Source of the DNA: Hypericibacter terrae
GTDB lineage: Bacteria; Pseudomonadota; Alphaproteobacteria; Dongiales; Dongiaceae
Direction of reading: 5' to 3'
Length of the DNA: 64,000 bases
NCBI RefSeq assembly: GCF_008728855.1
Contig: NZ_CP042906.1
Location: 3,222,001-3,286,000 of the forward strand
Part shown: in pieces, positions 36,672 to 63,315 of the stretch
Position numbering within the stretch: position 1 is the stretch's first letter
How the letters are laid out: each line of letters begins with the position of its first letter
Position numbers and translations under genes: made by a program
Notes under the pieces: model-generated
What the model saw: only the letters and a program-made list of their open reading frames with translations
The model's database searches: none
What the model was told of the DNA's origin: nothing

Positions 36672-36990
36672 TCAGTGAATGGCCGCATCCATGATCTTCT
36701 CTTCCGTCGCCTCGGAGGCCGGCATTTCCTCCACGATCCTGCCGCCGCGCGCGATCAGGATACGATCGGAAACCGAAAGAATCTCCGGCAAATAGGAAGA
36801 GATTACGACCATGGCTTTGCCCTGCGCGGCCAGGGCGCCGATCGCCGCATGGATCTGCGGGATGGCACCCCCATCGACGCCCCGCGTCGGTTCGTCGAAG
36901 ATCACCACCGAAGGCGCCTGCGCCAGCAACCTGGCGACCACCACCTTCTGCTGGTTGCCGCCGGGTCCCCGAGCGACGGGCCTATCCCGA
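36672..36990 (-). pseudogene. Truncated sugar-ABC ATPase remnant (RbsA/MglA C-terminal end)
   Basis: About 105 residues matching only the C-terminal nucleotide-binding half of a ribose/galactose-type ATPase: GPGGNQQKVVVARLL (signature, with Pro where Ser is normal), VVIFDEPTRGVD (Walker B), VVISSYLPEILSVSDRILIARGGRIVEE and ATEEKIMDAAI at the very end. The ~390 residues that should precede, including both Walker A sites, are missing; the upstream sequence no longer matches. The frame opens at 37070 but the first 28 residues are unrelated. Dead relic of a sugar importer. Confidence 0.8.
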
Positions 36991-37083
36991 GATCCGGTTC
37001 GACCTGCGCCATTATCTTCATGCGGAAGCCCGGCTCGCGCAGAATAAACTCGGTGAGCTGGATTCGCCACCAGGGAGAGCGAC

Positions 37084-46839: not shown

Positions 46840-47799
46840 ATGGCCTCTTCCCAGCATAGCCCGAGTGCGGCCACGCACCCAAGCGGCTCCGGCCCTTCCG
46901 CGGGCCATGCCGCAGAACGGGCACAGCATCTGCGCGGCCTGCTCTTCTGCTCGCTGGCGGCGATCATCTGGAGCTCAGGCGGCGTGGTGGTCCGCACCGT
47001 GGGCGCCGGTGCCTGGGAGATCATTTTCTGGCGCTCGGTCTTCGCCGGGCTGTTCCTCGCAGGGCTGCTGCTGGTGCGCGAGCGCCGGCGCTTCTTCAGG
47101 GTCTTCCTCGAGGCGCCCTGGGCCAGCATCGGCATGGGGCTCTGCTTTGCCACGGCCTCGACCTGCTTCGTCATCGCGATGGAATATACCAGCGTCGCGA
47201 AGATTCTGTTTCTCCAGGGCATCTCGCCCTTCATCGCCGCGATCGCGAGCTGGCTGATCCTGCGCGAGAGGGTCGGGCCCCGCACCTGGGGCGCCATGGC
47301 GATGGCGCTGGTCGGGATCGGCATCATGGAGATCGAATCCTTCGAGGGCAGCGGCAGCCTGATCGGCGATCTGCTCGGCGTCGTCATCGGCTGCGCCTTC
47401 GCCGGCGCCACGATCATCGTGCGCAGCAACCGCAAGGTGCGCATGATTCCGGCGGCCTTCTATGCCACCGTCATCGCCGGCACCATCGCCGCGACCCAGG
47501 CCCCAACCCTCGCCATCAGCGACCATGACTTGCCGTATCTGTTCTTCTTCGGCTTCGGTCAGCTCGGCCTGGGCATGGCCCTCTATACCAGCGGCGCCCG
47601 CCATATCCCGGCCGCCGAAGCGGCGCTGGCGGCGCTGCTCGAGCCGGCCCTGGGGCCGATCTGGGTCTGGCTGGTCTATGCCGAGAACCCGGGCATTTAC
47701 GCGATCGTCGGCGGCGCCATCCTGATCGGTTCGCTGATCCTGCACAGCCTCTACGACCTCCATGCTGCCGGACGGCGCGTCGTCCCGCCCGTCGTCTGA
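46840..47799 (+). CDS. DMT-superfamily transporter (EamA), first of second pair
   Basis: 319 residues from ATG 46840; the open frame upstream would start inside the divergent hydrolase's leader. Ser/His/Ala-rich ~30-residue N-terminus, then ten helices: IIWSSGGVVVRTVGAG in the first, GCAFAGATIIVRSNRK in the second EamA repeat, ending ALLEPALGPIWVWLVYAE. Predicted exporter. Paired with a paralogue 7 bases downstream, which raises the possibility of a heteromer. Confidence 0.9.
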   Translation: MASSQHSPSAATHPSGSGPSAGHAAERAQHLRGLLFCSLAAIIWSSGGVVVRTVGAGAWEIIFWRSVFAGLFLAGLLLVRERRRFFRVFLEAPWASIGMGLCFATASTCFVIAMEYTSVAKILFLQGISPFIAAIASWLILRERVGPRTWGAMAMALVGIGIMEIESFEGSGSLIGDLLGVVIGCAFAGATIIVRSNRKVRMIPAAFYATVIAGTIAATQAPTLAISDHDLPYLFFFGFGQLGLGMALYTSGARHIPAAEAALAALLEPALGPIWVWLVYAENPGIYAIVGGAILIGSLILHSLYDLHAAGRRVVPPVV

Positions 47800-47806
47800 T
47801 CGCACC

Positions 47807-48694
47807 GTGAGCAGCCTCGTTCATAACCCGGACCTCGTCCGCGGCCGCGCGATGATCGCCGGCGCCGCCCTGCTCTGGAGCATGGCCGGCATCCTGACCC
47901 GGCTGGTCGAGACCGATTCCTGGACGCTCACCTTCTGGCGCTCCTTCCTGGGCGGGCTGTTCCTGCTGCTGGCGGTCGCCTGGCAGCGCCGCGGGCTGTG
48001 GTCGCGGTTCCGGGCGTTGAGCCCGATCGGCTGGTTCCTGGGCATCTGGATGGGGATCGAGACAGTCTGCTTCATCCTCGCCTTCACCCACACCACCATC
48101 GCCAACGCCCTCATCATCATCGCCATCAACCCGTTGCTGGCGGCCCTGGCGGGCTGGCTGGTCCTGCGCGAGCGCATCGCGCTCCATACCGCGATCGCGC
48201 TCGTCGTCAGCTTCGGCGGCGTCACCTACATGGTCTGGGGCCAATTCGGGGGCGGCTCCGGCTTCGGCGACCTCATGGCCCTGACCGTCGCCGGCATGTT
48301 CGCGGTGGTGATCGTGACCATCCGGCGCTTCGGCGATATCGACCTGCTCCCGGCCATGGTGGTCGCCGGCATGACCGGGGCGCTGCTGTCGCTGCCGCTG
48401 GCGCATCCCTTCTCGATTTCGCCTGGCGATGCCGGCTATCTGACGCTCTTCGGCTGCGGCGAGTTCGGCCTCAGCCTGGTGCTCTTCACCGCCGGCGCCC
48501 GGCTGGTGCCGACGGTCGAGGTCGCCCTGCTGGGCCTGGTGGAATCCGCCCTGGCGCCGATCTGGGTCTGGATCGCCGTGGGCGAGCGGCCGGGGGAGCG
48601 GGCGCTGATCGGCGGCGCCGTCGTGCTCGGCACGCTCGCGGTCTACACCCTGGCCGACTGGCGCCGCGCGCGCGTGGTGCCGCCGTTGGCATGA
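47807..48694 (+). CDS. DMT-superfamily transporter (EamA), second of second pair
   Basis: 295 residues with a GTG at 47807 that just clears the previous stop (47799); an ATG at 47762 inside the upstream gene is the alternative, with coupled translation. Ten helices, LLWSMAGILTRLVETD first, LLGLVESALAPIWVWIAVGE last. Clear paralogue of the preceding gene (both share the ...EPALGPIWVW / ESALAPIWVW end), so a local duplication. Exporter of unknown substrate. Confidence 0.88.
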   Translation: MSSLVHNPDLVRGRAMIAGAALLWSMAGILTRLVETDSWTLTFWRSFLGGLFLLLAVAWQRRGLWSRFRALSPIGWFLGIWMGIETVCFILAFTHTTIANALIIIAINPLLAALAGWLVLRERIALHTAIALVVSFGGVTYMVWGQFGGGSGFGDLMALTVAGMFAVVIVTIRRFGDIDLLPAMVVAGMTGALLSLPLAHPFSISPGDAGYLTLFGCGEFGLSLVLFTAGARLVPTVEVALLGLVESALAPIWVWIAVGERPGERALIGGAVVLGTLAVYTLADWRRARVVPPLA

Positions 48695-48777: not shown

Positions 48778-49152
48778 ATGACCGCGATCATCGCCAATGG
48801 CGCTTCCGCCGCCCCCGCTCAGCCCCGCGCCAAGGATTCATCCGGCAGCGGGTTGGTCGCCGCCCTCGTCTTCGCCCTCTTCGGCAGCCTGCTGGCCCTC
48901 GGCGCCGCCGCCGCCCCCAGCCCCGCCGGCGGCGCGCCCGTCCCGGTTGGCGTCTTCGTGCTGGGCGGCAGTGCCCAGGATGCGATGGCCATCGTGACCG
49001 CGGCCAATGGCCGGATCCTCGCCGACACCGCCATCGGCGGCGGCGTGGTGGCCATCTCCGACGAGCCCGGTTTCCGCGACCGCCTCTACAGCGCCGGCGC
49101 CAGCCTGGTGCTGGGTGTCAGCGGCAAATATGGCTGCGGGCCGCAGATCTGA
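48778..49152 (+). CDS. Hypothetical membrane-anchored protein
   Basis: 124 residues. A 20-residue polar N-terminus, one hydrophobic helix (about 25-46, GLVAALVFALFGSLLALGAA), a Pro/Ala linker and a compact C-terminal domain with GGSAQDAMAIVTAANGRILADTAIGG. The C-terminal half (VFVLGGSAQDAM..., ...SGKYGCGPQI) reads like a small alpha/beta domain exposed to the periplasm or a cleaved secreted peptide. No family recognised; codon pattern fits coding sequence. Precedes the HD-GYP receptor gene. Confidence 0.6.
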   Translation: MTAIIANGASAAPAQPRAKDSSGSGLVAALVFALFGSLLALGAAAAPSPAGGAPVPVGVFVLGGSAQDAMAIVTAANGRILADTAIGGGVVAISDEPGFRDRLYSAGASLVLGVSGKYGCGPQI

Positions 49153-49378: not shown

Positions 49379-52306
49379 ATGGCCGGCGGCTTTGGCTTCG
49401 GCAATCGCACTTTCCACCTCCATGTCTATATCGCGGTGCTCTTCCTCGGTTTGCTGATTGCCTTCGCGGCGATCACCATCTCGACCCAGAACTATCTCAG
49501 CCGAAGCATGATGCTGTCCTCGGCGGAGACCCTGTTCACGCGCGTCGGCCAGGAGACCAAGCAGTCCATCGACGCGATCTACGCGCCGGCGAGAACCTCG
49601 GTCGAGCTGCTGTCGAAGTCGATCATGATGGATGCCACGACGCTCGAGGTGAGGCTGAGCCGCCTGCCCCTGCTCGTCGCGAGCCTGCAGAACCATCCCG
49701 AGATCTCAGCCGCCTATGTCGGCTATCAGGACGGCGACTTCTTCCTGGTGCGACGCTTCAACCCCGACTCCGCTCTGGGGCATGCGCTTTCCGCACCGAA
49801 GGAGTCGGCCTACGTCGTACAGAGCATCTCCCGCGACGCCGAGGGACTGCGGGATCCGCGGTTCCTCTTCTACTCGGACAAGCTGGAATTCCTGACCAGC
49901 AAATCGGTGCCCAACTACGTCTTCGATCCCCGGACGCGTCCCTGGTATCAGGAGGCGATCGTGCGGATCGGCACCATCTCGACCGATCCCTATCTCTTCT
50001 ATACGACGCGCGAGGTCGGCGCGACCGTGGCCGAGGCTTCGGCCAATCAACGTGCCGTGATCGGCATCGACGTAACCCTGGGCGCCATGTCCGACCTTCT
50101 GAAGACGCAACGCCCGGCTCCCTCTTCACAGCTCTTCGTGTTCAACGACAAGGGCGAGGTGCTGGCCGACACGGACTCGGTCTACCGCCTTCAGGTCGAC
50201 GATCTGGGGACTCCGAGCCTGCCGAAGCTCTCGGAGATGGGTCAGCCCTTGCTGAGCAGCATCGCCGACCATGGCATGGCCGACCTCGACCGCTCGCATG
50301 CTTATGAAATCAACGGCGTTATCTGGCAGGGCATTCTGACCCGTTGGATCGTGGACGGCGTGCCCTACTACATCGCCATCGCCGCGCCGCAGAAGGAGCT
50401 GCTCGCCGATGCCGCCCACATCCGCAATATCGGTCTTTGGATCTCCCTGGGCCTCCTCCTCCTCGCGATCCCCATCACGATCGTCTTGTCGCGGATGGCT
50501 TCCGGACCGCTCAAGGCCCTGATCCACGAGACCCGCGCGGTCCAGGCGCTGAAGTTCGACGAACCCATCAAGGTCCGCTCCTTCATTTTCGAGATCGACA
50601 AGCTTGCCCGCTCGATGGATGCGATGAAATCGACCATCCGCCGCCTGCTGCAGATCGGCACGGTCCTGGGCGCCGAGCGCAGCGTCGACCGCCTGCTCAA
50701 TCGGATTCTGTCGGAAACCGCGAGCGTGATCGATGCGCGCGGCGGTCTGGTCTATTTGCAGCAGCCGGACGGCCATCTGATCGCGGCTCACGCCTATTGG
50801 GACGGCCAGCCCCGCAACCTCGTCCGACGCCCGTTCGATCTGGTGCAAGACGCCGAGCATCCCGTCATCCGGGCCTTCAAGGGCGAAAACTGCGCCGTCG
50901 TCATGAGTGTCGCGGATCAGCGCCGCTGGCACCCGCATCTGCAAAATGACAAGCCCCTGACCTGCTTCGCCGTGGGTCTGCATAATCGCCAAGGCCAACC
51001 CGTGGGAGCGCTGATCATGGCCGCGGGGGAAGAGACATTGGACCGGCGCGCCATGGCCGACCGCTTGGCCCTGGTGGAAGCCTTGTCGGGCGCGGCGGCG
51101 GTCGCGATCGAGACTCAGCGCCTGATCCAAGAGCAGAAGGATCTGCTGCGAAGCCTGATCGAGCTAACGGCCGGCGCCATCGACTCCAAGAGCGCCTATA
51201 CCGGCGGTCATTGCCAGCGCGTCCCCGTCCTGACGGAGATGCTGGCCAAGGCCGCCATGAACAGCAAGGACGGGGTGTTCAAGGATTTCACCCTGAACGA
51301 GGACCAGTGGGAGGAGCTGCATATCGCAGCCTGGCTGCATGATTGCGGCAAGGTCACCTCGCCGGAATATGTGATCGACAAGGCGACCAAGCTCGAGACC
51401 ATCTATGACCGGCTGCATGAGGTCCGCATGCGTTTCGAGGTGGCGAAGCGCGAGGCGGAGGTGGCTTGCTGGAAGGCGATCGCCGACGGCGCCGACCGTG
51501 CGTCGGCGCTGCGCGACCTTCTGGCGCTATGGACGGCGCTCGACGACGACTTCCGCTTTCTCGCCAAGAGCAATGTCGGCGGCGAATTCATGGCGCCGGC
51601 CGATATCGAGCGGGTCCAGGCCATAGCCAGGCGCAGCTGGACCCGGACGCTCGACGATCGCATCGGGATCTCCTACGACGAGGCCGCGCGCAAGAAGCGC
51701 CAACCGGCGCCGGTGCTGCCGGTCACGGAGCCGCTGCTCGCCGACAAGGCCGAACATATCGTGCCCCGCCCCGACCGCGAGAAGCTGGCGCCGGACAATC
51801 CCTGGGGCTTCAAGATCAAGGTGCCGGAGCACCTGTTCAATCGCGGCGAGATCCACAATCTCACGATCAAGCGCGGCACCCTGACCGAGGAGGAACGCTT
51901 CAAGATCAACGAGCATATGATCGAAACGATCCGCATGCTGAGCCGCCTGCCCTTGCCGCGCCATCTGCGCAACGTTCCGGAAATCGCCGGCGGCCATCAC
52001 GAGAAGATGGACGGGACCGGTTATCCCAAGCGCCTCTCGCGCCACGAGATGAGCCTGCCGGCCCGCATGATGGCGATCGCCGATATCTTCGAGGCGCTGA
52101 CGGCCGGCGACCGTCCCTACAAGAAGGCCAAGACCCTGTCGGAATCGCTCGCCATCATGTCGAAGATGCGCGACGAGAATCATATCGATCCCGATCTCTT
52201 CGACCTGTTCCTGAGCGCCGGCGTCTATCGCGACTATGCGGACATGTTCCTGGCGCCCGAGCAGCGCGACGATATCGACATCGAGCCGTTGCGGCGGCGG
52301 GCCTGA
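49379..52306 (+). CDS. Cache-HAMP-GAF-HD-GYP c-di-GMP phosphodiesterase receptor
   Basis: 975 residues from ATG 49379 (AGGTGA 5 bases upstream); GTG 49370 is the alternative. TM helix ~18-40, a large periplasmic double-Cache domain (~45-345; YVGYQDGDFFLVRRF, RTRPWYQEAI), TM2 ~350-370, HAMP, a GAF domain (~435-590) and an HD-GYP domain. HD pair His654-Asp655 in LHDCGKVTSPEYV; HHExxDGTGYP at 873-883. The two are ~220 residues apart rather than ~70, because ~150 residues are inserted. Expected to hydrolyse c-di-GMP on sensing a periplasmic ligand. Five bases before the binding-protein gene, so they form one operon. Confidence 0.93.
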   Translation: MAGGFGFGNRTFHLHVYIAVLFLGLLIAFAAITISTQNYLSRSMMLSSAETLFTRVGQETKQSIDAIYAPARTSVELLSKSIMMDATTLEVRLSRLPLLVASLQNHPEISAAYVGYQDGDFFLVRRFNPDSALGHALSAPKESAYVVQSISRDAEGLRDPRFLFYSDKLEFLTSKSVPNYVFDPRTRPWYQEAIVRIGTISTDPYLFYTTREVGATVAEASANQRAVIGIDVTLGAMSDLLKTQRPAPSSQLFVFNDKGEVLADTDSVYRLQVDDLGTPSLPKLSEMGQPLLSSIADHGMADLDRSHAYEINGVIWQGILTRWIVDGVPYYIAIAAPQKELLADAAHIRNIGLWISLGLLLLAIPITIVLSRMASGPLKALIHETRAVQALKFDEPIKVRSFIFEIDKLARSMDAMKSTIRRLLQIGTVLGAERSVDRLLNRILSETASVIDARGGLVYLQQPDGHLIAAHAYWDGQPRNLVRRPFDLVQDAEHPVIRAFKGENCAVVMSVADQRRWHPHLQNDKPLTCFAVGLHNRQGQPVGALIMAAGEETLDRRAMADRLALVEALSGAAAVAIETQRLIQEQKDLLRSLIELTAGAIDSKSAYTGGHCQRVPVLTEMLAKAAMNSKDGVFKDFTLNEDQWEELHIAAWLHDCGKVTSPEYVIDKATKLETIYDRLHEVRMRFEVAKREAEVACWKAIADGADRASALRDLLALWTALDDDFRFLAKSNVGGEFMAPADIERVQAIARRSWTRTLDDRIGISYDEAARKKRQPAPVLPVTEPLLADKAEHIVPRPDREKLAPDNPWGFKIKVPEHLFNRGEIHNLTIKRGTLTEEERFKINEHMIETIRMLSRLPLPRHLRNVPEIAGGHHEKMDGTGYPKRLSRHEMSLPARMMAIADIFEALTAGDRPYKKAKTLSESLAIMSKMRDENHIDPDLFDLFLSAGVYRDYADMFLAPEQRDDIDIEPLRRRA

Positions 52307-52310
52307 TCCG

Positions 52311-53453
52311 ATGGCGGTCCGCAATCCGGGATCGCGAGGCCCACTCCGCGGTTTGAGCCGCCGGGCATGGCCCATGGCGCTGACGGTCCTTGCCCTCCTC
52401 GGCGGCATGCCGTCCGCCCTGGCGGACCCATCGCTCGATTCCCTGGCGCTTGCGCAGCAGCGCGCCGCCGATGCCCTCGAGGCGGTCACGGTCTGGCGGG
52501 GACCGACCTCCGGGCCTAAGGCGTCCCCCGGCAAGGTGATCGCCTTCATCGCCGAGGATCTGCGCAATGGTGGCATCGCCGGCGCTCTGCGCGGCGCGCA
52601 GGAGGCGGCCAAGGTCGTCGGCTGGACCGTGACTGTCTATGACGTGGCGGGTAGCGACGCCGGAAGGCAGCAGGCGCTCCGGAACGTGCAGATTCTACAT
52701 CCGGACGGCGTCATCTTCGGCGGCTTCAACGCGCAGAACTATGCGCCGTGGATCGACAATGTCGTCGGGCTCGGGATCGTCGTGGTCGGCTGGCATGCGG
52801 CCTTCGAGCCGGGATTCGTACCCGGAACGCAGCTCTTCACCAATGTCGCCAGCAGCGCCCGCGAGGTCGCGCTCGCCGCCGCCTCGTTCGCGGTGGTCAA
52901 GAGCGGCGGGACGGCCGGCGTGGTGATCTTCACCGATTCGCGCTTTGCCGTTGCGCAAGCCAAGGCCGACGATATGGCGACGATCATCCGCAATTGCGCC
53001 GGCTGCAAGCTGCTTTCGATCGAGGATCTCAACCTCGACCAGGTCCAGGCCGAGATGCCGGCGCGATTGGCCTCTCTCGACCGGCGCTTCGGCGATGCCT
53101 GGACCGTCAGCCTGGGCATCAACGATCTCTATTACGACGCGATGGCTTCGATCCCGGACGCGCGCGCCGATCTGATCAACATTTCCGCCGGCGACGGCTC
53201 CCGGAGCGCCTTGCTCCGTGTCGGGACGGGCCTCGGGCAGACCGCAACCGTCGCCGAACCGCTCAACCTCGAGGGCTGGCAGCTGATCGACGAGTTGAAC
53301 CGCGCCTTCCACAACGAGATGCCGAGCGGCTATGCGCCGCATGCGCGTCTCCTCACCCCCGACGCGCTGACCGGCACCGTAGGCGAGGACTTCACCTACG
53401 ACCCGCCCAACAACTACCGACAGATGTATCGCCAGATCTGGGGCCGGGAGTAA
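52311..53453 (+). CDS. Periplasmic sugar-binding-like protein (type 1 binding protein)
   Basis: 380 residues from ATG 52311. Twin basic residues and a hydrophobic core (RRAWPMALTVLALLGGMPSALA, cleavage after ALA) form a signal peptide. The mature part is a LacI/RbsB-type periplasmic binding fold: GKVIAFIAEDLRNGGIAGALRGA, HPDGVIFGGFNAQ, GIVVVGWHA, GGTAGVVIFTDSRFA. No ABC permease or ATPase follows, so it probably presents a ligand to the Cache domain of the co-transcribed HD-GYP receptor. Convergent with the decarboxylase gene 13 bases away. Confidence 0.9.
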   Translation: MAVRNPGSRGPLRGLSRRAWPMALTVLALLGGMPSALADPSLDSLALAQQRAADALEAVTVWRGPTSGPKASPGKVIAFIAEDLRNGGIAGALRGAQEAAKVVGWTVTVYDVAGSDAGRQQALRNVQILHPDGVIFGGFNAQNYAPWIDNVVGLGIVVVGWHAAFEPGFVPGTQLFTNVASSAREVALAAASFAVVKSGGTAGVVIFTDSRFAVAQAKADDMATIIRNCAGCKLLSIEDLNLDQVQAEMPARLASLDRRFGDAWTVSLGINDLYYDAMASIPDARADLINISAGDGSRSALLRVGTGLGQTATVAEPLNLEGWQLIDELNRAFHNEMPSGYAPHARLLTPDALTGTVGEDFTYDPPNNYRQMYRQIWGRE

Positions 53454-61431: not shown

Positions 61432-62292
61432 ATGTTTCTCATAATCGGCTCGGTCGTCGTGCTTGCCTGCGTCTTCGGCGGCTACATGGCGTCTGGCGGG
61501 CACATGATCGTGCTGTTCCAGCCCTTCGAAGTCCTGATCATCGCCGGCGCGGCGGCGGGTGCCTTCATCATCGCCAATCCGGTGTCGGTGCTGAAGAAGA
61601 CGATCTCCTCGACCATCGGCCTGCTCAAGGGGCCCCGCTACAACAAGGCCAGCTATGTCGAACTGCTGAGCCTGCTCTATCAGATCTTCAAGCTCTCCAA
61701 GACCAAGGGCATGCTGGCCCTCGAGGGCCATGTCGAGAAGCCGGAGGAGAGCACGCTCTTCGCGCAATTCCCCAAATTCGCCAGCGACCATCACGCGATG
61801 ATCTTTCTGTGCGATTACCTGCGCATGCTGACGCTGGGCACCGACAATCCGCACGAAGTCGAGTCGATCATCGACGAGGAGCTCGAGACCCACCACAAGG
61901 AACAGCATGTCATCTCGGATGCGGTCCAGACCATGGCGGACGGCATGCCGGCGCTGGGCATCGTCGCAGCCGTGCTGGGCGTCATCCACACCATGGGCTC
62001 GATCACCGAGCCGCCCGAGGTGCTGGGCCACCTGATCGGCGGCGCGCTGGTCGGCACCTTCATGGGCGTGCTGCTGTCCTACGGCTTCGTCGCGCCGACC
62101 GCGACCGCCCTCAAGACCCGCTTCGACGCCGAGGCCAAATATCTGCAATGCATCCGCGCCGGTCTCCTGGCGCATATGCAGGGCTACCCGCCGGCCGTCT
62201 CGGTCGAATTCGCGCGCAAGGCGCTGCTCTCGGAAGTCCGGCCCAGCTTCTACGAGGTCGAGGAGGCGGTTTCGGCGTTGCCGGCCGTCTAA
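61432..62292 (+). CDS. motA: Flagellar motor stator protein MotA
   Basis: 286 residues, four membrane helices and a large cytoplasmic loop between helices 2 and 3. N-terminus MFLIIGSVVVLACVFGGYMASGGHM is diagnostic, as is GGALVGTFMGVLLSYGF near helix 4 with the conserved Pro residues (ADGMPALGIVAAVLG and SITEPPEVLGH). Charged loop residues (VESIIDEELETHH) contact FliG. Forms the proton channel with MotB, whose gene follows 27 bases later. Alphaproteobacterial MotA length is typical. Confidence 0.96.
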   Translation: MFLIIGSVVVLACVFGGYMASGGHMIVLFQPFEVLIIAGAAAGAFIIANPVSVLKKTISSTIGLLKGPRYNKASYVELLSLLYQIFKLSKTKGMLALEGHVEKPEESTLFAQFPKFASDHHAMIFLCDYLRMLTLGTDNPHEVESIIDEELETHHKEQHVISDAVQTMADGMPALGIVAAVLGVIHTMGSITEPPEVLGHLIGGALVGTFMGVLLSYGFVAPTATALKTRFDAEAKYLQCIRAGLLAHMQGYPPAVSVEFARKALLSEVRPSFYEVEEAVSALPAV

Positions 62293-62319
62293 GCCGCTCA
62301 ACCCGATCCGGACCTCCCC

Positions 62320-63315
62320 ATGGCCGAAGCCGCCGCACCCGGCACCAATCAGCCGCCGATCATCATCAAAAAGAAGAAGAAGGGCGGCGGTCACGGCCAT
62401 CATGGCGGTGCCTGGAAGGTCGCCTATGCCGATTTCGTGACGGCGATGATGGCGTTCTTCCTGCTGCTGTGGCTCCTCAATGCCACCACGGAAGAACAGC
62501 GCATCGGCATCGCCAATTATTTCGCGCCCAGCGTCGCGCCGGATGCGAGCAGCGGCTCGAACGGCGTGATGGGCGGCCAGACCGTCACCACCGATGGCGC
62601 CATGGTGGCCGAAAACTCCACGCCGAGCGTCACGGTCGAGATCGACGCGCCGCCGGCCGAGACCGATGGCGATTCCGGCGGTGCCGCGACCGCAGCCGTG
62701 GCGGCCCAGACCGACACTGCCGATCAGACGGCCCCCGCCCAGCAACAGGCCGCCCAACCGACCGACACGCAACAGGCCAGCGCCAGCGACCAGGAAGCGC
62801 AGAAGCTGCTGAAGGAGCTCCAGGACGAGCAGTTCCGCCAGGCGGAGCATCAGTTGCGCCAGGCGATCCAGCAGGTGCCCGACCTCAAGACCATGGCGCA
62901 GAACCTCATCATTGACCGCACGCCCGAAGGCATGCGCATCCAGCTGGTCGACCAGGACCGCGTCTCGATGTTCTCGAGCGGCAGCGCGAAGATGGAGGAC
63001 TACACCAAGAAGCTCCTGGATCTGGTGGCCCAGGTCGTTTCGAAGATGCCGAACAAGATCTCGATCTCGGGTCATACCGATTCGACGCCGTTCCAGAGCG
63101 ACAATGGCTACAGCAACTGGGAGCTCTCCGCCGACCGCGCCAATGCCAGCCGGCGCGAACTGCTGGCGGCGGGGCTCGCGCCGGACCGCATCGCCAATGT
63201 GGTCGGCAAGGCCGACACCGACCCGTTGTTGCCCGACGATCCCAGCTCGCCCCGTAACCGCCGCCTGAGCATCGTGGTGCTCAACGAGCAAATGCCGCAG
63301 CCTCCGCAGCAGTAA
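62320..63315 (+). CDS. motB: Flagellar motor stator protein MotB
   Basis: 331 residues. Basic N-terminus (IIIKKKKKGGGHGHH), a single membrane helix in KVAYADFVTAMMAFFLLLWL carrying the proton-binding Asp (ADF), then a long, low-complexity linker rich in Ala, Gln, Thr and Asp (about 70-155), and a C-terminal OmpA-like peptidoglycan-binding domain (ISISGHTDSTPFQSD, NWELSADRANASRR). Anchors the stator to the cell wall. The linker is longer than in enterobacterial MotB. Co-transcribed with motA. Confidence 0.95.
   Translation: MAEAAAPGTNQPPIIIKKKKKGGGHGHHGGAWKVAYADFVTAMMAFFLLLWLLNATTEEQRIGIANYFAPSVAPDASSGSNGVMGGQTVTTDGAMVAENSTPSVTVEIDAPPAETDGDSGGAATAAVAAQTDTADQTAPAQQQAAQPTDTQQASASDQEAQKLLKELQDEQFRQAEHQLRQAIQQVPDLKTMAQNLIIDRTPEGMRIQLVDQDRVSMFSSGSAKMEDYTKKLLDLVAQVVSKMPNKISISGHTDSTPFQSDNGYSNWELSADRANASRRELLAAGLAPDRIANVVGKADTDPLLPDDPSSPRNRRLSIVVLNEQMPQPPQQ

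Follow-up and report, generated by a model that had tools for sequence, protein, structure and literature searches.

A gene pair of Hypericibacter terrae that may join a sugar-type periplasmic binding protein to an HD-GYP receptor

The gene pair and the question it raises

What does a periplasmic binding protein (PBP) serve when no transporter stands beside its gene? The question is raised by a 64,000-nucleotide stretch of Hypericibacter terrae DNA (contig NZ_CP042906.1, positions 3,222,001 to 3,286,000)—the whole of which is called the window here, coordinates being counted within it—where a PBP gene directly follows the gene of a transmembrane receptor with an HD-GYP domain, the putative module for breakdown of cyclic diguanylate (c-di-GMP):

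49379..52306, + strand: receptor gene, 975 amino acids from ATG; transmembrane segment, dCache_1, transmembrane segment, HAMP, GAF, HD-GYP with insertion
52311..53453, + strand: PBP gene, Peripla_BP_4 / ribose type, 380 amino acids

The receptor starts at ATG 49379 or alternatively at GTG 49370, from which its residues are numbered in the following, and stops at 52306. The PBP gene runs from ATG 52311 to the stop at 53453 on the same strand, 4 bp behind the receptor, which confirms the adjacency reported by an initial annotation of this DNA; its N-terminus is signal-like as judged by eye. Both genes are kept in another genome of the genus (G261, locus L123), there with a 4-nt overlap, and judging from this conservation the pair is more than chance.

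We consider it fairly probable that the two genes form one signalling unit, in which a freed sugar-type PBP would bind a periplasmic compound, dock on the Cache domain of the receptor, and set c-di-GMP hydrolysis. Sequence comparison, described below, supplies the pair itself and its retention in one sister species, the intact catalytic motif and fold core, recurrent partnerships on the side of both genes, and a changed surface patch of the PBP.

Binding proteins accompany the receptor family

Queried with the receptor, the genome collection yielded 79 loci. Solute-binding proteins (SBPs) accompany this family in two forms. In 25 of 40 representatives, Pfam finds an SBP_bac_3 domain inside the receptor itself; five of these scanned singly (in L012, L015, and L018, and two in L047) carry it at about residues 260–515, ahead of the catalytic half and with no GAF match. 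In nine of 46 further receptor loci, the directly preceding gene, encoded in the same direction and spaced by −1 to 39 bp, is of SBP_bac_3 type: at a paralogue in the own genome (L127), at six more loci within the same family, and at two from another family (L172 and L180). Of these nine genes, the six that were scanned all score above the Pfam cut-off; the three unscanned ones (L144, L148, and L149) are 42–71% identical to scanned ones. A hidden Markov model from the nine upstream genes—whose own scores prove nothing, as the model was built from them—has a single further match among 359 neighbour genes, a hybrid kinase that itself contains an SBP and is encoded upstream of the L163 receptor. 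L005 bears a weak SBP_bac_3 gene 3 bp downstream of the receptor (23.4 bits, cut-off 26.4). With the window, L123, and the SBP_bac_3 cases counted, an SBP neighbour is present at nine of 17 same-family receptor loci. These independent pairings, the fused forms, and the conservation in the sister species support the earlier proposal of a dedicated module of receptor and binding protein.

The catalytic-domain tree of the receptors comprises 26 of the 39 named representatives; L142 (taken as the same record as L007) and L174 (short contig) were left out. The window receptor groups with L123 and next with L007, L130, and L155. None of the latter three has an SBP neighbour, so it was probably within this genus that the receptor acquired its Peripla_BP_4 partner. 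Distributing SBP_bac_3 neighbour, Peripla_BP_4 neighbour, and no neighbour on this tree needs six changes.

A second module is found in the own genome (L127 2912–6759; contig C1, at about 6.9–10.8 kb), where an SBP_bac_3 gene lies 29 bp upstream of the paralogous receptor. This paralogue is 44% identical to the window receptor and likewise a Cache-GAF-HD-GYP protein with the same insertion. Other binding-protein genes stand near the receptor family as well: a TctC-like gene is divergent from the receptor at position −1 in 15 of the 79 named loci (L015 and other Vibrio loci), and in L073 the receptor is divergent from an SBP_bac_8 gene. TctC as a receptor partner in Vibrio is only a guess, as the gene in L015 precedes genes that by eye resemble a transporter of its own.

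The binding-protein family recurs beside c-di-GMP enzymes

The window PBP scores 31.5 bits against Peripla_BP_4, below the Pfam cut-off of 35.1. Its relatives in L125, L124, and L213 pass with 62.4, 79.8, and 65.6 bits, and the PBP profile matches ribose-binding chains in the PDB, so that the protein is counted as Peripla_BP_4 / ribose type. No NCBIfam match was obtained—to TorT or to any other named family—and such identities were hence dropped. By sequence search, the PBP occurs in two of 17 genomes of the family and three of 240 of the class, and a five-row profile finds it in 17 of 398 genomes of the phylum at E 1e-30.

The 19 PBP loci, window included, fall into eight in ATP-binding cassette (ABC) operons, seven beside a c-di-GMP enzyme, one beside a hybrid kinase (L217), and three alone (L126, L210, and L221); these counts cover this PBP family only. 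The ABC operons were called with the ATPase by motif, the permease being confirmed by Pfam in L124 only. In the window and L123 the PBP lies directly behind the HD-GYP receptor, and in L125 an HD-GYP response regulator gene follows the PBP, with a hybrid kinase divergent. The remaining c-di-GMP-linked loci are L213, L218, L219, and L220. In L213 (2244–6445) the PBP gene overlaps the gene of a 4HB-GAF-GGDEF-EAL receptor; in L218, L219, and L220 a GGDEF-EAL receptor gene stands directly behind the PBP (by Pfam for L218 and L220, by motif only for L219), and a second, divergent periplasmic-protein gene adjoins, Peripla_BP_4 being confirmed for it in L218 only.

Placing the c-di-GMP label on the tree of the PBPs takes three changes, of which well-supported branches force only one. 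Repeated recruitment of the PBP family to c-di-GMP enzymes thus appears likely. As to what the protein binds, the sugar-like ligand of the initial annotation stands in part, as a class: the PBP is of ribose type, and its ABC-linked relatives adjoin genes that by eye resemble sugar-acid or pentose catabolism.

The Cache ectodomain may bind a ligand of its own

Ahead of its catalytic part, the receptor contains:

49910..50326, + strand: dCache_1 match, residues 181–319 (Pfam 38.3 bits, below the cut-off of 45)
50483..50641, + strand: HAMP linker, residues 372–424 (Pfam 21.3 bits, below the cut-off of 25)
50675..51112, + strand: GAF domain, residues 436–581 (GAF_2 33.5 bits, above the Pfam cut-off)

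Within the PDB set, the best sequence relatives of the Cache domain are PctA-type receptors, for which the dCache amino-acid motif is given as Y121, R126, W128, Y129, Y144, and D173 (PMC10104139; this source and the others cited here are drawn on in extract). All six positions are kept in the window receptor as F185, R190, W192, Y193, Y208, and D234, F replacing Y121 of PctA. The pattern [FY]-R-W-[FY]-Y-D is found in 91 of 102 aligned long receptors—those of at least 850 amino acids among 126—including unpaired ones, and in 11 of the 12 SBP-paired receptors, L005 being the exception. This argues for a direct amino-acid ligand, which the Cache probably binds itself, with the PBP as a second input. 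The initial annotation had the binding protein deliver a sugar-like ligand to the Cache. Such a delivery is doubtful because the Cache keeps the amino-acid motif and, in known SBP–receptor systems, it is the loaded SBP that docks on the receptor (PMC9602780); two separate inputs appear likelier.

The motif, kept in unpaired receptors as well, would also suit another explanation: the Cache alone senses an amino acid, and the PBP is merely co-transcribed, with an independent periplasmic or scavenging role. The eight same-family receptor loci of 17 that lack an SBP gene point the same way. However, several branches of the receptor family have an SBP either within the receptor or next to it, and the PBP family recurrently adjoins c-di-GMP enzymes, which makes this explanation rather unlikely in our view.

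The binding protein stands apart from ABC transporters

That the pair is isolated from any ABC transporter, as had been stated for this locus, was borne out. Among the 56 predicted genes of the window, no permease stands beside the PBP, and no other part of an ABC importer adjoins the pair. The nearest BPD_transp_2 permease in the own genome is about 50 kb away, and a CUT2 ABC importer—which would call for a linked permease and ATPase—is hence not recognized here. Read from coordinates, 14 of the 20 Peripla_BP_4 places in this genome have a BPD_transp_2 permease at 5 kb or less, and the window PBP belongs to the six that have none.

The protein itself appears altered on a defined part of its surface:

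53028..53084, + strand: PBP residues 240–258, a patch constant in ABC-linked relatives and changed in the window PBP

In the PBP alignment, 126 columns are constant in at least seven of the eight ABC-linked proteins. The window PBP keeps 92 of these. Among the residues kept are N271-D272 and D295, whose counterparts in aligned ribose-type proteins are known as ligand-site positions. Within the patch, 9 of 11 ABC-constant columns are changed, compared with 25 of 115 elsewhere (Fisher p 1e-4)—a p value inflated by the patch having been picked on this very protein, so that a fair test has to come from the other signalling rows. These show changes in 9 of 11 columns (L123), 7–8 of 11 (L218–L220), and 6 of 11 (L213 and L217). 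The lone PBPs of L221, L126, and L210 are changed in 6–8 of 11 (p 0.08–0.1). By alignment, the patch includes the position of R166 of RbsB, a residue listed among those affecting contact to the ribose channel (PMC5557919).

One might still suppose that the PBP feeds a distant ABC importer and that its place behind the receptor is incidental: eight of the 19 PBP loci are ABC operons, and the genome holds 47 BPD_transp_2 permease places that could supply a partner. The usual closeness of permease and Peripla_BP_4 gene in this genome—set against none within 50 kb here—the change of the ABC-constant patch, and the conservation of the pair in G261 speak against this, and we give the supposition little credence. 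The recurrent SBP partnership and the changed patch together suggest that the PBP is most likely a dedicated periplasmic input of the phosphodiesterase.

Several observations weigh against a dedicated input, besides the inflated p value and the restriction of the locus counts to one PBP family named above. The Cache, with its full amino-acid motif, may suffice without the PBP, and the receptor can exist alone, as those same-family loci without an SBP neighbour illustrate. Of 17 genomes of the family, just two have the Peripla_BP_4 partner, both of them from this genus. Patch changes are not significant in L125 (4 of 11 columns, p 0.086), and the ABC-linked control L124 also reaches p 0.03, the other leave-one-out tests of ABC-linked rows being not significant. 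Finally, the single-sequence model of the PBP, with a predicted local distance difference test score (pLDDT) of 36, is unusable.

A 132-codon open reading frame on the − strand (36672–37070), 15 kb from the orphan PBP, resembles by eye an RbsA/MglA-type sugar ABC ATPase of which only the C-terminal end is left. It may be the remnant of a sugar importer that was lost; a Pfam scan of a 90-residue part of it gave no ABC match.

The HD-GYP core is intact around an old insertion

The catalytic part of the receptor is described by three features:

51338..51343, + strand: HD motif H657-D658, invariant in 40 sequences
51392..51853, + strand: insertion in the HD-GYP domain, residues 675–828 (about), a subfamily hallmark, folded in the model
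51995..52027, + strand: HHE-KM-DGTGYP motif, residues 876–886, HHE and GYP invariant in 40 sequences

From HD (657–658) to HHE, which starts at H876, there are 219 residues, and both motifs are intact; the wide spacing without motif loss, remarked on already in the initial annotation, is thus real. The GYP triad stands behind HHE, as in HD-GYP phosphodiesterases (HHEKMDGTGYP). The metal motif of HD-GYP domains, H...HD...H...HH...D (PMC8177086), is complete with H614, H657-D658, H849, H876-H877, and D905, all invariant in the 40 sequences. Pfam reports the domain solely from the end of the insertion onward (HD_5, residues 785–943, 182 bits). In the AlphaFold model of residues 585–978 (pLDDT 90.7), the insertion is folded—two long helices followed by smaller elements—and the catalytic halves flanking it align to the HD-GYP domain of PA4781 (4r8z) with Z 20.5 over 208 residues at a root mean square deviation of 2.6. 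The structural matches in the PDB cover the HD-GYP core, and the fold is recognized from both sides of the insertion, by model and by alignment to 4r8z. As both flanks together align to HD-GYP structures, the catalytic core is therefore not split in space, and the receptor is predicted to be an active c-di-GMP phosphodiesterase.

The insertion itself is an old, common, folded hallmark of an HD-GYP subfamily. HDCGK followed by 212–230 residues to HHE is present in all 80 aligned receptors (the 79 loci and the window), which rejects it as a novelty. Mean column conservation is 0.63 in the insertion—with many invariant charged residues—compared with 0.47 in the Cache, 0.43 in GAF, and 0.76 and 0.81 in the catalytic halves. 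Used as a query, the 155-residue insertion has matches in 88 of the 249 phylum genomes sampled, about a third (some cover only the first ~85 residues), in 24 of 385 genomes of the class at E 1e-20, and in 14 of 17 of the family, where one partial, stop-containing match (G251:C141) was not fetched. Shorter proteins carry it as well, such as one of 589 amino acids in L129 aligned from residue 423 on, and so do members without Cache and without SBP; the receptor tree includes rows of Campylobacterota and Thermodesulfobacteriota. Its presence in all aligned receptors, in many genomes, and in shorter proteins makes it old and common, and the earlier view that it distinguishes this receptor is not supported; its proposed role as an extra regulatory surface is a hypothesis. 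At the thresholds used, neither Pfam nor NCBIfam has a name for it, and searches of open-licence papers turned up no description of the subfamily. Of the two peculiarities of the locus, the gene pair is the better finding.

Inside-out signalling, in which the HD-GYP domain would be a c-di-GMP receptor and the Cache would pass its state outward to the periplasmic protein, takes its model from DvhD and DvhG of Desulfovibrio vulgaris—DvhD being a dCache-PAS-HD-GYP membrane protein with a periplasmic partner (PMC13090378) and its HD-GYP domain one of the best structural matches (9rbz, Z 19.1)—but is very improbable for the window receptor, which has all metal ligands and whose partner is a ligand-binding fold and no protease.

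A proposed mechanism

In the mechanism that we favour, a sugar-type binding protein that once served an ABC transporter would, now released from it, capture a small periplasmic compound and dock on the Cache ectodomain, which probably binds an amino acid itself. The receptor would then integrate two periplasmic inputs and whatever the GAF domain senses, and the PBP would thereby set c-di-GMP hydrolysis by the HD-GYP domain. Docking, ligand, direction of the response, and enzyme activity are what we infer from the comparisons above.

A wider picture can be put forward tentatively, and we hold it to be possible at best. Sugar-type ABC binding proteins might have been taken over several times for unlike c-di-GMP enzymes—HD-GYP here, GGDEF-EAL in two other families—with loss of the permease-docking patch each time. 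The window receptor would be a two-ligand gate, for an amino acid via the Cache and a sugar-like compound via the PBP, and would be the first known case of an HD-GYP enzyme controlled in trans by a binding protein; searches of open-licence papers turned up no study of an HD-GYP enzyme under such separate control.

For most enzymes that break down c-di-GMP, the input is not known. Should the proposed reading hold, the receptor family would offer a natural series on one HD-GYP chassis—SBP fused, SBP in trans with two folds, and no SBP—across which the effect of the binding protein could be tested by comparison. The PBP family would likewise supply members for transport and members for signalling, set apart by a defined surface.

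Surroundings of the pair

Upstream of the pair lie two tandem EamA-family transporter genes (46840–48694, + strand) with a 38 bp overlap and a gene for a 124-amino-acid protein (48778–49152, + strand) without Pfam match, which is found at the equivalent position in the sister species (L123 8627–9001). Downstream, a pyridoxal phosphate-dependent-type decarboxylase gene is convergent. Two genes resembling motA and motB by eye (61432–63315, + strand) follow 8 kb further downstream; c-di-GMP commonly acts on flagellar motility.

Comparison with known systems

According to the extract of a review, only SBP_bac_3 of the PBP clan had been studied in c-di-GMP networks (PMC8846402). There, SBP_bac_3 serves c-di-GMP control in RmcA and other SBP-fused c-di-GMP enzymes (PMC8846402). 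The SBP of the RmcA type acts in cis, as in the gammaproteobacterial relatives of the window receptor, whereas the window PBP is encoded in trans and belongs to another fold family. With PctA and other dCache_1AA receptors, the window receptor shares the ectodomain—by best PDB sequence match and kept motif positions—but, unlike these chemoreceptors, it bears an HD-GYP output and a PBP gene. The DvhD–DvhG system resembles the pair in combining a dCache and HD-GYP membrane protein with a periplasmic partner, yet there the partner is a protease and signalling runs outward (PMC13090378). Unlike the window receptor, the HD-GYP chain of DvhD counts 211 residues and has no large insertion.

In TorT–TorS and LuxP–LuxQ, a type I PBP docks on the sensor of a membrane histidine kinase. 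The window pair would share with them the type I PBP fold and a docking site on a sensor in the membrane rather than on a transporter, while their output is a histidine kinase.

The likeness to NspS–MbaA of Vibrio cholerae, found also in Sinorhizobium, concerns the arrangement as a whole: a periplasmic binding protein is encoded with a transmembrane c-di-GMP enzyme and sets its activity (PMC8967002), and control of c-di-GMP enzymes by SBPs is stated elsewhere too (PMC9602780). The window pair shows the same coupling of a binding-protein gene to the gene of a transmembrane c-di-GMP receptor. MbaA is a GGDEF-EAL protein, whereas Pfam finds HD-GYP as the only output domain of the window receptor; and NspS binds polyamines and presumably belongs to another SBP family than the ribose-type Peripla_BP_4 protein of the window. 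By analogy, the pair may work like NspS–MbaA, yet it is not a member of that system.

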